NCBI GenBank assembly: GCA_004843345.1
Contig: CP039460.1
Coordinates: 62,001-126,000, forward strand
From: Acetobacteraceae bacterium
GTDB lineage: Bacteria; Pseudomonadota; Alphaproteobacteria; Acetobacterales; Acetobacteraceae
DNA length: 64,000 nucleotides
Direction: 5' to 3'
Below the pieces are notes generated by a model that was given only the letters and a program-made list of their open reading frames with translations, was not told the DNA's origin and made no database searches. Made by a program: the position numbers and the translations under genes. This document shows, piece by piece, positions 1,729-39,817 of this stretch. Each line of letters opens with the position of its first letter. The stretch's first letter is position 1.

Positions 1729-3135
1729 CTATCCGTAAGCTCGCAGATCCCCATTATGCGTTATAACCAGAATTTTTCCATTACACACAATTGGCTGAAC
1801 AGAAGAACCGTTAGGCATACGCCGTTTTTTTTCAATTCGTCCTGTGTCCGCATGCACAACAATCATTCCGGCACGGGCGTATGTTGAAAAACAAATCAAT
1901 CTTCCATCTACCATAATAGGTCCCACCCATTCGATGGCACCCTTTTGATGCTTTTCATTTGAGAAGCGCTGTAATTGTGTTACCCACTGAACTTTCCCGT
2001 TAAAACGATCTAAACAGGCAAGCTGCTGATCTAAAGACAAGACAAAGATCCAATCTCCACAAATACACAAGGGATTTTGACTGCTTGCCTCTCTCTCCCA
2101 CAAACGTCTCCCTGAGCGAATATCCATTGCAACCGTAACTTGCGACATAGAAGAAGCATAAACCGTTCCCCCCACGATAATAGGGCTTCCTCTGATGCAT
2201 GCAAAATCCAAAGCGGCGCCTCTACCGTTGCTCCCTCCTAAACTATCACTCCAAATAATTTCGCCAGAATTTATACGCAGTGCAATTAAATCTCCACTGT
2301 TAAACCCTGCAATCATCGTGTCTCCACTAATAGCAGGTGTCGACGCTCCAAAAATAACAGTACTGGCGGGAGAGCCTCTATACGTCCATAAAAGTTTTCC
2401 TGTTTCAGAATCTAAAACAAACAACCTTTCATCAATGGTTGTAAAAGCTAATTTTCCATCCGAAACAACAGGAGCGGACCGTCCTGGTGTTCCAGCTTCT
2501 GAACTCCACTTAATTTTTCCTGTTGCAGCATAAAGCGCCCAAACTTTTGTTACACCATCCACGACGTAAACAATATCACCGTCTACTGCGATACCACCGC
2601 CAATGTTACTAGAATGTGTATTCAGTGCAGGCTGAAAGCTCCATAAAAAATGCCGTTTTGGCCAACTCCAAGCACGTACATTCCCTTGAGCATCTGACGT
2701 AAAAAGACGCCCACCGCCAATAACTGGAGGAGATGCTATTGCCCCTCTACTATTTGGAAAAGTTGTAACGACTGATAAAGCTGTATAGATAAGATTATAG
2801 CTTGAATCTCCAGAACCAATCGACATACTCCACAAAGGATGCACCCCTTTTCCTGCAGCATTCAATGAAATATGAGTTGCTTCCAAGTTTTGCTGTGGCC
2901 ACTCTTTTATATTCTGAGGCACGGGCAAAACCACCTCTCTTTTCTCTCCAGATGCAACATGAAGACCTGCCCCTGAAGAAAGCACATCTATTCTCTGACC
3001 TGCCAAATGAGGTTTTTCAGCCTCACCCATCAAAGATTCAATAACAGAACACCCAGGCAACGAAGCTGTCATGACACCCCCTGTCAGAAAATTCAATAAT
3101 TTTCGACGTGAATATCTTCTTTGAGAATTAATCAA
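1729..3135 (-). CDS. bamB: BamB-like beta-propeller outer membrane assembly lipoprotein
   Basis: This looks like BamB, the propeller lipoprotein of the BAM complex that inserts outer membrane proteins. The protein carries repeated PQQ-type blades with recurring G-x-(I/L)-x-W segments, and the gene sits directly upstream of der, as in many proteobacteria. I chose the TTG at 3135 (468 residues) because a strong GGGAGGAG sits 8 bases before it. An ATG at 3162 would add 9 residues and place that sequence inside the coding region. The N-terminus has SRRKLL, a twin-arginine-like motif, then a hydrophobic stretch ending in the lipobox LPGC, so it may be a Tat-exported lipoprotein (inference). An alternative is a PQQ-type dehydrogenase relative, but it lacks that length. 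Confidence 0.85.
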   Translation of the reverse strand: MINSQRRYSRRKLLNFLTGGVMTASLPGCSVIESLMGEAEKPHLAGQRIDVLSSGAGLHVASGEKREVVLPVPQNIKEWPQQNLEATHISLNAAGKGVHPLWSMSIGSGDSSYNLIYTALSVVTTFPNSRGAIASPPVIGGGRLFTSDAQGNVRAWSWPKRHFLWSFQPALNTHSSNIGGGIAVDGDIVYVVDGVTKVWALYAATGKIKWSSEAGTPGRSAPVVSDGKLAFTTIDERLFVLDSETGKLLWTYRGSPASTVIFGASTPAISGDTMIAGFNSGDLIALRINSGEIIWSDSLGGSNGRGAALDFACIRGSPIIVGGTVYASSMSQVTVAMDIRSGRRLWEREASSQNPLCICGDWIFVLSLDQQLACLDRFNGKVQWVTQLQRFSNEKHQKGAIEWVGPIMVDGRLICFSTYARAGMIVVHADTGRIEKKRRMPNGSSVQPIVCNGKILVITHNGDLRAYG

Positions 3136-3166
3136 ACAAGTATCTCCTCCCAAAGGTTTCATTGTC

Positions 3167-15541: not shown

Positions 15542-16137
15542 TTGCCCGATTTTCAATTTCTTTTCGCCTCAAATTTTAATTTTTTTCATCCATTAGAAAC
15601 ATCCGCTGTTCTAAAATTTTTTATAATTATTATTGGCACGCTCATTCTTGAAGATTTTACAACTGTTTTCGTCGCTTTAGCCGCACAGCAAAATAAAATT
15701 TCCATTCTTTTGTCCATCATATCCCTATGGATTGGCATCACCTTTGGAGATATTCTACTATATATACTGGGGATGTGTGGAACAAACAGTCTTGGAATAC
15801 GTCGTTTTCTTAAGCTTTCTGAAAGGCATCGTGGCACAGTGTGGTTTTCAGACAATCTAATAAAAATTATCGTTGTTTCCCGATTTGTTCCTGGATTAAG
15901 ATTACCTTTTTACACAGCATGTGGTTTTTTTTTCGAACGCCATTCTTATCCTTCATCCAGATCATCTCTTTAACGACACTGGTTTGGACAATTTTTCTTT
16001 TTACTGTTTCATTCAAATTTGGAAGCTGGATTCTTGAACACTCTGGAAACTGGCGTTTACTAAGTGTTTTGGGATTTTTAGTTAGCATTTACTTCATCAA
16101 AAAACTAATCAAAAACTCGAATTTCTTTAATCCTTAA
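15542..16137 (+). pseudogene. DedA-family membrane protein, frameshifted at a T9 tract
   Basis: DedA proteins are polytopic inner membrane proteins; some flip undecaprenyl phosphate. The first frame (from TTG 15542) reads through about 130 residues with TLILEDFTTVFVALAA, WIGITFGDILLY and SRFVPGLRLPFYTACGFFF, all family-like. It then runs into nonsense and stops at 15973. A second frame carries on as RTPFLSFIQIISLTTLVW to a stop at 16137. The join falls in the nine Ts at 15925-15933. One more T (or two fewer) would give one protein of about 199 residues, the usual size. It may be a real break, a phase-variable tract or a sequencing error. The ATP-grasp gene follows 18 bp later. Confidence 0.8.
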
Positions 16138-20252: not shown

Positions 20253-21304
20253 TAATCCCAACTACCTAAAGCTTCTATCTGCGCTTGCTGAGCGAGGCCA
20301 TCAACAATTTCATCTAACTCACCAGCCATAACTTGAGACAATTTATATAGTGTTAAATTAATTCGATGATCGGTAACACGTCCCTGAGGAAAATTATACG
20401 TACGAATACGTTCAGATCGGTCGCCTGTTCCAAGTTGAGACTTCCTATCTGCAGCCCTAGCATCATGTAGCTCTTGACGTTGACGTTCATAAAGTCGTGC
20501 ACGCAAAATCTGCATGGCCCTTAATCTATTTCGGTGCTGACTTTTTTCTTCCTGAATAGCAACGACAATTCCAGTTGGCAAATGTGTAATTCGTACAGCA
20601 CTCTCTGTTTTATTAACATGCTGACCACCAGCTCCAGAGGCTCTAAAAACATCAATTCTAAGATCTTCATCTTTTATATTCACATCGACCTCTTCTGCTT
20701 TTGGCAGAACAGCAACCGTTATCGTTGAAGTGTGAATCCTGCCCTGACTCTCAGTTGAAGGTACACGCTGTACACGATGAACACCTGATTCATACTTTAA
20801 AAAAGAAAAAACAGATTTTCCTGTAATCTCGGCAACCCCTTCTCTAAAGCCTGAAAGTTCGGTTTGACTAATAGAAACAACATCGAACTTCCACCCTTTC
20901 TTTTCAGAGAAGCGCCTATAAAGTTCAAACATATCACCTGCAAAAAGAGCTGCTTCATCCCCTCCTGCAGCTGGACGTATCTCCAGAATAGCACTCCGCT
21001 CATCCATTTCATCTTTTGGAAGAAGCGCTAACTTCACTGCCTTTTCTAAATCTGGGAGTTTTAATTGCACCTCATCTAAATCATTTTGTGCTAGCTCTTT
21101 AAAATCATCATCCTCAAGCAGCTCTATAGCCTCCGCTTTTCGCTTGAGTAATTTTTGCCAAGCATTAATTGCGGCAACAGGCTCTTCTAAAATAGCATAT
21201 TCACAGGCAAGTTCAGCATATTCATCTCCTTGAGCAGATAAAAGAAGATGTTGAACTTCTGCAAAACGTGCTAGAATTTTTTCTAGCTTTTCATCCATTT
21301 TCAT
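20252..21304 (-). CDS. prfA: Peptide chain release factor 1
   Basis: RF1 ends translation at UAA and UAG. The 350-residue protein has the catalytic GGQ at 226-228 in GAGGQHVNK and the codon-recognition tripeptide P182-S-T184 in [10 protein letters not shown], which matches the RF1 P-x-T motif rather than the RF2 S-P-F. Length is normal and the start, ATG 21304, has AGGAAA upstream. It follows hisS by 11 bp. As RF1 is present, the amber codon inside comF should be read as a stop. Confidence 0.98.
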
Positions 21305-29836: not shown

Positions 29837-30595
29837 TTACGAAAAAGAAACCGTATTAAGGCGACCTCTAATCGCGACGACAGTCATAACAGAAGAACAA
29901 CTTGAGGCGAGCAAAGCCTTACTGCAGGCTTCCGCAGTTGCGCCACTCGTCATAACATCATCAATCAAAATAGCTCTCCTGCCTGCAAAAGATAGAGAAC
30001 AATACTTCCGACGCACACGAATAGAATTTTCTAAACATCGCCGACGCTCTGAAGAAGACATTTTTCCTAATGATTCTGTTTCCCGATATCTTTCTAAAAA
30101 ATCTGGAAAAAAAGGCAATCGTGACAACTAAGAAAAAGCTCTCCCCAATAGTGCAGACTGATTATATCCTCTTTTTCTGAGTCTCTTTAAATGTAGAGGG
30201 ACTGGTACGATAAAATCAGTTGATTTCAAAGAAGAAGCCGCCACAGAAAACATAAATTTTGCAAAAATTGGTGCAAGTCTATCTTGACCAGAATATTTCA
30301 AACGCAAGATAAGATATCGGGCGAAGGGATTATAAACCAACCCTGCTCTGCCCTCCTGCCAATTAGGTTGAGAAATAAGACATGAGGTACAGACATTTAA
30401 CGTTTCTATTGATGCCACAGAAGGTGCGCCACATTGCGGGCAAAAAGGCGCAATAATAGGTTCTAATCGCTTAAAACACTCGACACACAAAGAATCTCCC
30501 TGCATAACTGGAGCTTCACAGGAGACGCATGCTGAAGGAAAGAGGAAATCTACTCCTCTTTCCTTCAAGCTTGAAAATTTTTTAAAGAGTATCAA
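29837..30595 (-). pseudogene. comF: ComF-family phosphoribosyltransferase, interrupted by TAG
   Basis: The frame shows a complete ComF protein of about 250 codons with one TAG at 30128-30130. Before it come the zinc-type cysteines (CVSCEAP, CVECFKRLE, FCPQCGAP), LKYSGQD, VPVPLHLKRLRKRGYNQS and LLGRAFS. After it the same frame goes on with the ERRRCLENS segment and the PRPP loop AILIDDVMTSGATAEAC to a TAA. The break falls where homologues usually have Lys, Arg or Glu, so a single base change explains it. A TTG follows the TAG directly but has no ribosome binding site. ComF-type proteins aid DNA uptake in some bacteria. The start overlaps the upstream gene by 14 bp. Confidence 0.85.
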
Positions 30596-36388: not shown

Positions 36389-39300
36389 CTAAAATGCAAT
36401 GTAGGCTGTAATTCCTGGAAGAATTTTAACTTGTTCAAGGAGTTTCGGTGTAACGGGGTAAAAAGCTGGCAGATCCAGAATAAATTTTTGTTCTTTTTTC
36501 TCAAAAAGAAGGGATATTCTACCAGCTCCAGATGGGCAAGAATCCAACTTATCCTTCAGTAAGGAAAGAGAATCCCCATTCTTAATCACAATCACCATAT
36601 TTGTTTTGCCTTTTTGTATCTCCGATTCTAATGCTGTTACGCGCCGAGCAGTTAAACGAAATGCTTCTTCCTCTTTACGAATAGAAATACTTGCAAAAAC
36701 TTCTGAACCTTCTTTAATAAAAGGTCTGGCATCTTCTAAAACTTCCGAAAACATCACAAATTCACAAGTGCCATAACCATCACTGACAGTCAGCCAGGCC
36801 ATTTTCTTGCCACTTTTCGTAGGACGCTCTTTTCTTTGAATGACGATGCCCGCAATTGAGATAACACTTTCTTCACTTCCCAAGTCTAATGACTCAATTT
36901 CAGAAATAGGCGTGACATTTATTTTTTTAAAAACATCTTTATAACTATCAAGAGGATGAGCGCTTAAATAAAAACCAATCGCAGAATATTCTTCTTGTAA
37001 ACGACGTGAGGTTTCCCACATAACAGGCGGTTGACGAAGAGGTAATTCACTAAATGCTTTTTCTTCCTCAATACCACCGAATAAACCACTCTGTCCTGAT
37101 GCTTCCTCAAGTGCTCTTGCATGAGATCGGGCTAAAACAACATCAATATTTTCAAAAACAACTTCGCGTTTCATAGAAAAGCCATCAAAAGCCCCTGCTT
37201 TTGCGAGATTTTCCAATTGCATTTTATTTAAAAATCCACCACTACAACGTTGAGCAAAATCCGTTAAATCTGTGAATTTTTTATTACCTCTTACGCGGCA
37301 CAACTCTTCCATAGCACTGAGGCCAACTCTTTTAACCGCAGCAAGAGCATAGCGTATAATATATTCTCCGTCCTCTTGCCTTTCGACAGAAAAATCTGCT
37401 TTAGAGTGGTTAATATCTGGTGGCATGACCTTAATATTCATCCGGTCAGCCTCTTGGAAGAAAACAGCCAATTTCTCTGTTTTTTCTCTTGAAAGGGACA
37501 TGCATGCTGCAAGAAATGCCACTGGATGATGCGCTTTCATCCAAGCTGTTTGATAAGAAACAAGCGCATAAGCAGCCGCATGAGATTTATTAAATCCATA
37601 ATCTGCAAATTTAGCCATCATATCAAAGACAGAATTTGCATCTTTTTCAGAAATCCCTTTCGCAACAGATCCTTTAATAAAAATTTGGCGCTGCTTTTCC
37701 ATTTCCGCTGCAATTTTTTTACCCATTGCACGCCGTAAGATATCTGCTTCCCCAAGACTATAACCCGCCATTTCCTGCGCAATCTGCATGACTTGTTCTT
37801 GGTACACCATAATCCCATAAGTTTCTTCTAGGATTGGTCTGATCGTTTCATGTGGAGATTCCCAGTGTTCCCCATGTTTTCGGCGGCAATAAGCTGGAAT
37901 ATTTTCCATCGGACCTGGCCTATAAAGCGCCACACCAGCAATCAAATCTTCAAATCTATTTGATTGCATCTGTTTGAGCATATCCCGCATCCCAGGACTT
38001 TCAAACTGAAAGACGCCAACGGTATCCCCTTTGGCCATCATCTCAAATGTTTTTTGGTCATCAAGCGGTATATGAGATAAATCGACCTCAATTCCTAATT
38101 CTTTTAAAAAATCAACACCTCGCTTCAAAAGGGTCAAGGTTGCCAAACCTAAAAAGTCAAATTTCACAAGCCCCGCTTTTTCAACGTATTTCATTGAAAA
38201 TTGGGTAACGAGCATACCGCTTTCATCTCGGGGATCTCTGTAAAGAGGAACCAACTCTACAAGTTCCCTATCCCCAATCACAACACCTGCAGCATGGGTT
38301 GAGGCATGCCGGAAGAGCCCTTCTAGCTGAAGGGCTCTTTCTAAAAGAACCGCCTCATCGTCATCTTTTCTCTGCTCAATTTTCAAAAGTTCCGCTTCTT
38401 CCGAAATGGCCTGCCTTAAAGCCATTGGTTTCGCAGGATTATTGGGAATCAGCTCAGCAATACGATTAACAGCCCCGTAAGGAATCCCGAGGACACGTCC
38501 GACATCCCGAACAGCTGCTTTTGCCTGTAATTTTCCAAAAGTAATAATTTGTGCCACACGGGTTGAGCCATATTCATCCCGGACATAGCGGATAACCTCA
38601 TCACGCCGATGCTGACAAAAATCAATATCAAAATCTGGCATCGAAATACGTTCAGGATTTAAAAAACGCTCAAAGAGGAGACTGAAACGAATAGGATCAA
38701 TATCTGTAATCGTTAAAGAAAAAGCGACGAGAGAACCTGCACCAGACCCACGCCCCGGTCCAACAGGAATATCATGTGCTTTTGCCCATTGAATAAAATC
38801 AGCAACGATTAAAAAATATCCAGGAAATCCCATACGGATGATAATGCCTATTTCGTGCTCTAGGCGTTCTTCATAAATTTTTCTGGCATCATCCTTTAAA
38901 TTCATAACAGCAAGACGTCTTTTGAGGCCATCTCTTGCCATTTTTGTTAGAACCTCGCCAGCATCTTCATTTTCTCCAACATTTTTCGATATCGGTAACA
39001 AAGGTTTTATAGAGCGAACTTCAACATGACAGCGGCGTGCTATCATCAAACTATTTGAGAAAGCTTCGGGAATATCCTTAAAAAGCTCTTTCATCTGCTT
39101 AGGAGATTTAAACCAACTCCCCTTAAATGCCTTCTTTCTATCTTCTTCTGCAGCGACTTTTCCTTCTCCAATGCAAAGGAGAACATCCTGCGCCATTCTC
39201 ATTGTAGGGCTTGAAAAAAAACAATTATTAGTTGCCACAAGCGGAATGCTAAACCTATCCGCTAAAGCAACCATATCGCTTTCTATCTGCTTTTCACCGG

Positions 39301-39817
39301 GAGCGCCAACACGTGTTAGCTCAACAGCCAGATTATCCTTAAAAGCATCTAATAAGCGAGAAAGAAGTTTTTGAGCTTGGCCTTCATCCTGACGGAGTAA
39401 AAATTGCCCTAAAGGACCAAGAACACCTCCAGTTAAAAGAAAAATCCCTTCAGCATGATTACATAAAAATTCAATAGAACTGAAAGGCGTTGAGGGATTC
39501 CCTTGAAGATATCCTTCTGTCGAAAGCTTGCGTAAATTAAGAAGACCTGCTGAGTTCCTTGCTAAAGCAACAACTGGGGAGGCATTCTCGCCGTCAAAAG
39601 ATACGCCAAGTTGACACCCAATAATTGGTTGAATCCCTCTTTGACGACATATCCCTGAGAATTCTAAACTCCCAAACATATTGCCACTATCCGTTAAGGC
39701 AGTGGCTGGCATTTTATAGCGTTGCGCCAACTCGGCAATATCACTGACGCTCATGGCGCCTTCACTTAAAGAGTACGCCGAATGATTACGGAGATGAACA
39801 AAATCAGAATAAGGCAT
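36389..39817 (-). CDS. dnaE: DNA polymerase III alpha subunit
   Basis: This is the main replicative polymerase. The 1142-residue protein starts with a PHP domain (HLRNHSAYSLSEGAM), has the palm motif PDFDIDFC near residue 400 and VGPGRGSGAGSLV, the fingers with FNKSHAAAYALVSYQ and a C-terminal OB fold. Length is normal for DnaE1, and the domain order matches the replicative type rather than the error-prone ImuC/DnaE2. It follows lolD by 51 bp; proS-lolC-lolD-dnaE is a conserved alphaproteobacterial order. Confidence 0.98.
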   Translation of the reverse strand: MPYSDFVHLRNHSAYSLSEGAMSVSDIAELAQRYKMPATALTDSGNMFGSLEFSGICRQRGIQPIIGCQLGVSFDGENASPVVALARNSAGLLNLRKLSTEGYLQGNPSTPFSSIEFLCNHAEGIFLLTGGVLGPLGQFLLRQDEGQAQKLLSRLLDAFKDNLAVELTRVGAPGEKQIESDMVALADRFSIPLVATNNCFFSSPTMRMAQDVLLCIGEGKVAAEEDRKKAFKGSWFKSPKQMKELFKDIPEAFSNSLMIARRCHVEVRSIKPLLPISKNVGENEDAGEVLTKMARDGLKRRLAVMNLKDDARKIYEERLEHEIGIIIRMGFPGYFLIVADFIQWAKAHDIPVGPGRGSGAGSLVAFSLTITDIDPIRFSLLFERFLNPERISMPDFDIDFCQHRRDEVIRYVRDEYGSTRVAQIITFGKLQAKAAVRDVGRVLGIPYGAVNRIAELIPNNPAKPMALRQAISEEAELLKIEQRKDDDEAVLLERALQLEGLFRHASTHAAGVVIGDRELVELVPLYRDPRDESGMLVTQFSMKYVEKAGLVKFDFLGLATLTLLKRGVDFLKELGIEVDLSHIPLDDQKTFEMMAKGDTVGVFQFESPGMRDMLKQMQSNRFEDLIAGVALYRPGPMENIPAYCRRKHGEHWESPHETIRPILEETYGIMVYQEQVMQIAQEMAGYSLGEADILRRAMGKKIAAEMEKQRQIFIKGSVAKGISEKDANSVFDMMAKFADYGFNKSHAAAYALVSYQTAWMKAHHPVAFLAACMSLSREKTEKLAVFFQEADRMNIKVMPPDINHSKADFSVERQEDGEYIIRYALAAVKRVGLSAMEELCRVRGNKKFTDLTDFAQRCSGGFLNKMQLENLAKAGAFDGFSMKREVVFENIDVVLARSHARALEEASGQSGLFGGIEEEKAFSELPLRQPPVMWETSRRLQEEYSAIGFYLSAHPLDSYKDVFKKINVTPISEIESLDLGSEESVISIAGIVIQRKERPTKSGKKMAWLTVSDGYGTCEFVMFSEVLEDARPFIKEGSEVFASISIRKEEEAFRLTARRVTALESEIQKGKTNMVIVIKNGDSLSLLKDKLDSCPSGAGRISLLFEKKEQKFILDLPAFYPVTPKLLEQVKILPGITAYIAF

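Follow-up and report, generated by a model that had tools for sequence, protein, structure and literature searches.

A single in-frame amber codon interrupts an otherwise conserved comF gene in an ant-gut Acetobacteraceae strain: a probable recent nonsense mutation

Introduction

The ComFC protein of Helicobacter pylori depends in vivo on its zinc finger as well as on its PRPP site for full transformation activity (PMC9005727). A comF gene interrupted between these two elements is found in Acetobacteraceae bacterium AAB2 strain 868, which comes from the gut of Camponotus ants and whose genome has already been described as eroding; 14 pseudogenes and a roughly 21-kb plasmid were reported, and 16% of the genes were ascribed to horizontal gene transfer (PMC6558740). 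As these pseudogenes were annotated as hypothetical proteins, with an amino acid permease as the single exception, comF does not figure by name in that set (PMC6558740). The assembly was made from PacBio RSII data with HGAP only, at 386x coverage and 99.9941% consensus concordance; Illumina 150PE reads of the strain exist, and were aligned after the assembly without taking part in it (PMC6558740).

Results

The window, that is, the whole stretch of 64,000 nucleotides analysed in this work, covers positions 62001-126000 of a 2,107,276-bp contig of strain 868, the second contig (C2) of the assembly being 20,485 bp long. Strain 880, also assigned to AAB2 and isolated from the Camponotus ant gut, is represented by a contig of 1,923,586 bp and was the sole congener in the comparison. 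Collinearity with strain 880 is almost perfect over the window (positions 1-64000), with nearly equal chromosome coordinates; the encoded proteins are about 43-97% identical between the two strains, which places them far apart for a single named lineage. A search of a plasmid collection revealed no close relative of the comF region, and none of contig C2.

The comF gene (ComF/GntX family) occupies positions 29837..30595 on the minus strand, as indicated by reading of the frame, alignment, profile match and tblastn, and it probably starts from TTG at 30593-30595 or slightly downstream. It had been predicted from the letters alone that a TAG splits this gene in frame and that both parts keep their key motifs, and our analysis bears out both statements. 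The stop codon (30128..30130, minus strand; CTA on the plus strand, next base T) is codon 156 of about 252, preceded by 155 codons in frame (30131-30595) and followed by 96 (29837-30127). The frame running from 30595 to 29837 is otherwise open on both sides, with no second stop, and it is only due to this TAG that strain 868 comF lacks a single continuous reading frame. When the intact ComF of strain 880 was used as a tblastn query, the match extended across the TAG with 66% identity over 232 residues, in one frame and with one internal stop; such an in-frame match across both halves far exceeds chance.

The N-terminal half (30131..30595, minus strand) carries the zinc ribbon cysteines and the PVPLH...RGYNQ segment of the PPi-loop region, according to alignment and profiles. 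Its residues 15-73 match the double zinc ribbon PF18912 (E 1.4e-13), the zinc-binding cysteines being present, and it also matches the N-terminal part of TIGR00201/ComF. The C-terminal half (29837..30127, minus strand), assigned in the same way, contains the flexible-loop region and the PRPP loop ILIDDVMTSGAT, in which DDVMTSGAT satisfies the pattern DDxxTxGxT, and matches the remainder of TIGR00201 (positions 116-186 of the model). The PF00156 match of this half alone falls under the PF00156 cut-off, and the TIGR00201 and NF008616 scores of comF stay under their cut-offs even with the TAG read through. No second comF was found in the genome of strain 868, and a broader search of genome contigs yielded nothing beyond distant ComF homologues.

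A comparison with close relatives, which the original prediction had proposed as a check, places the stop in strain 868 only. A comF match was present in 96 of the 100 Acetobacteraceae genomes searched, and among the matches listed the internal stops were confined to the TAG of the window and a TGA within a single match that is distant and partial. Strain 880 has an uninterrupted comF at the same syntenic position, with AAG (Lys) at the codon in question, while the other 28 aligned relatives have Arg (in most cases), Lys, Gln, Ala or Ser in this column. Thus, one of 30 aligned sequences, that of the window, has a stop there, and none of the 29 relatives does, so the TAG is no conserved recoding site. 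As in a nonsense pseudogene, the in-frame stop of strain 868 contrasts with an unbroken orthologue in strain 880, a close relative (66% identity across both halves).

The part of the gene behind the TAG is conserved as well as the part ahead of it, in agreement with the earlier claim that there is no sign of wider decay. Amino acid identity to strain 880 is 64% for the N-terminal and 67% for the C-terminal half, with NG86 dN values of 0.292 and 0.293, respectively, dS being so near saturation that dN/dS is only a rough measure. Near-invariant columns are retained at 36 of 40 positions before the TAG and at 15 of 17 after it, and in the latter region strain 868 is as close to outgroups as strain 880, or closer, in 27 of 28 comparisons. 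The lack of acceleration on the strain 868 branch rules out a long-standing decay of comF. Equal conservation of the halves, together with evolution no faster than in strain 880, indicates that the break is recent, is not real, or is bypassed.

The presence of release factor RF1, on which the expectation of termination at the TAG had been founded, was confirmed: prfA, whose product reads UAG as stop, is intact at 20267..21298 on the minus strand (limits as given by the match to the TIGR00019 profile, which scores 477 bits and contains no stops). A tRNA search of the strain 868 genome listed at least 50 matches, and no CUA anticodon was found among the listed tRNAs read with ARAGORN, a list that is without some tRNAs usual in rRNA operons. 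TAG also ends the genes at 1729-3162 (477 codons) and 36389-39817 (1142 codons), at or adjoining the ends of their orthologues in strain 880. Reassignment of the amber codon is ruled out by the intact RF1, by the use of TAG to end other genes and by the lack of an amber tRNA among those read. Of the 50 matches listed, a weak tRNA-like one of 47 bits (locus L182, G000:C1:2083670-2083870; match at 2083732-2083800) is not accepted by ARAGORN and may represent a degenerate tRNA or else an integration site.

Disruptions were counted by comparing 226 kb of strain 868 with 200 kb of strain 880, in which orthologues were found for 172 queries. Two genes in this region are truly disrupted, comF and one gene of the DedA/VTT type, and the comF TAG is the sole nonsense change. 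The DedA/VTT-domain gene (15542-16137, plus strand) is frameshifted at a T9 run (15925-15933), its counterpart in strain 880 being one continuous frame of 195 codons; this break may reflect a PacBio homopolymer error, a genuine frameshift or a site of slippage. Other stops flagged against strain 880 were rejected. Four lay 13-18 residues from the alignment start, in an overhang ahead of the real gene start; another came from a query that reads comF in antisense, and the one near position 162,615 of strain 868 (G000) concerned a 139-codon frame of strain 880 that is apparently spurious.

Discussion

The original prediction had offered three readings of the TAG, and the evidence ranks them in the order of recent nonsense change, assembly error and readthrough. 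We favor, with a probability of roughly three in four, a recent nonsense mutation that inactivates comF in strain 868, in other respects an ordinary loss-of-function change. A recent point mutation would have converted the sense codon 156 into TAG, and termination by RF1 would limit the product to a fragment of about 155 residues, which would retain the zinc ribbon together with the beginning of the phosphoribosyltransferase-like domain. Since the PRPP loop would be missing from it, this fragment is most likely inactive, and the allele may be heading toward a pseudogene within the genome erosion of the ant-gut lineage. Several observations weigh against such an interpretation. The text of PMC6558740 does not name comF among the 14 pseudogenes, and an erroneous TAG would explain the absence of downstream decay equally well. 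The T9 frameshift can be taken in either way, as a sign that such breaks are real or that the PacBio-only consensus has some errors.

It is unlikely, on balance, that the TAG is an error of the consensus and that comF is intact in the strain. The exclusive use of PacBio RSII/HGAP data would allow for such an error, and so would the lack of decay behind the TAG and the break of a second gene of the window at a T9 homopolymer, the typical residual error of such data. However, residual errors in a PacBio consensus are chiefly homopolymer indels and less so substitutions, and the change in comF is a base substitution in a codon that itself contains no homopolymer. Coverage of 386x and consensus concordance of 99.9941% also make a substitution error improbable, and just one nonsense change was encountered over 172 orthologues and 226 kb.

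Proposals that would preserve ComF function despite a real TAG, by readthrough or by division of the protein, are quite improbable even when taken jointly. Translation through the TAG, by a suppressor or by programmed recoding, would yield full-length ComF and would agree with the conservation of both halves in frame. Nevertheless, it appears very improbable, given that none of the relatives carries a stop at this position, RF1 is intact, TAG terminates other genes and no CUA-anticodon tRNA was found among the listed tRNAs read. Moreover, the base after the TAG is U, and a U following the stop codon is considered an efficient termination context. The production of two polypeptides, with the C-terminal half restarting at the TTG immediately 3' of the TAG and the halves assembling, is hardly credible. 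Apart from this TTG, it could draw on a GGGGAGA stretch noted by eye about 13 bases upstream, but this purine stretch encodes LLGR residues that are kept in strain 880 too, and lies rather far from the TTG for a ribosome-binding site. Furthermore, the cut falls inside the phosphoribosyltransferase domain, and no aligned relative has a stop at the site. We consider it similarly far-fetched that ComF activity persists and is tuned in strain 868, either by decoding of UAG at a useful rate or by halves made separately and reassembling.

Returning to the recent nonsense mutation as the preferred explanation, a separate problem is whether the loss of ComF could affect DNA uptake, as had been suggested. 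In weak support of this suggestion, strains 868 and 880 both retain intact comEC and dprA genes. On the other hand, no secretin (PF00263) was found in the whole genome of either strain, and this makes an effect of comF loss on DNA uptake doubtful. The secretin is the outer-membrane pore of Gram-negative uptake pili, and both strains probably lack a type IV uptake pilus of the type usual in Gram-negative bacteria. Transformation is not documented for this lineage in the literature consulted. A T2SSE/VirB11-type ATPase (PF00437, 100.6 bits; locus L191, G000:C1:1718657-1719232) is encoded by strain 868, with none found in strain 880; it possibly belongs to a conjugation or secretion element.

If the TAG is real, a DNA-handling gene has been freshly inactivated in a lineage known for extensive horizontal gene transfer, and gene loss is caught at its first step, though the result is in other respects an ordinary pseudogene. 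Should the TAG instead stem from the assembly, it serves as a warning about inferring gene loss from genomes based on long reads only.

Among known systems, strain 868 comF resembles members of the ComF/ComFC family (TIGR00201; GntX NF008616) in its zinc-ribbon cysteines, PPi-loop region and canonical PRPP loop, and differs from them in being broken by one TAG and in its TIGR00201 and NF008616 scores, which are under the cut-offs. Although comF is absent by name from the published text on the 14 pseudogenes, it is otherwise like the nonsense pseudogenes of genome-reducing insect gut Acetobacteraceae (PMC6558740), with which it shares the same genome, an internal stop and an intact sister orthologue.
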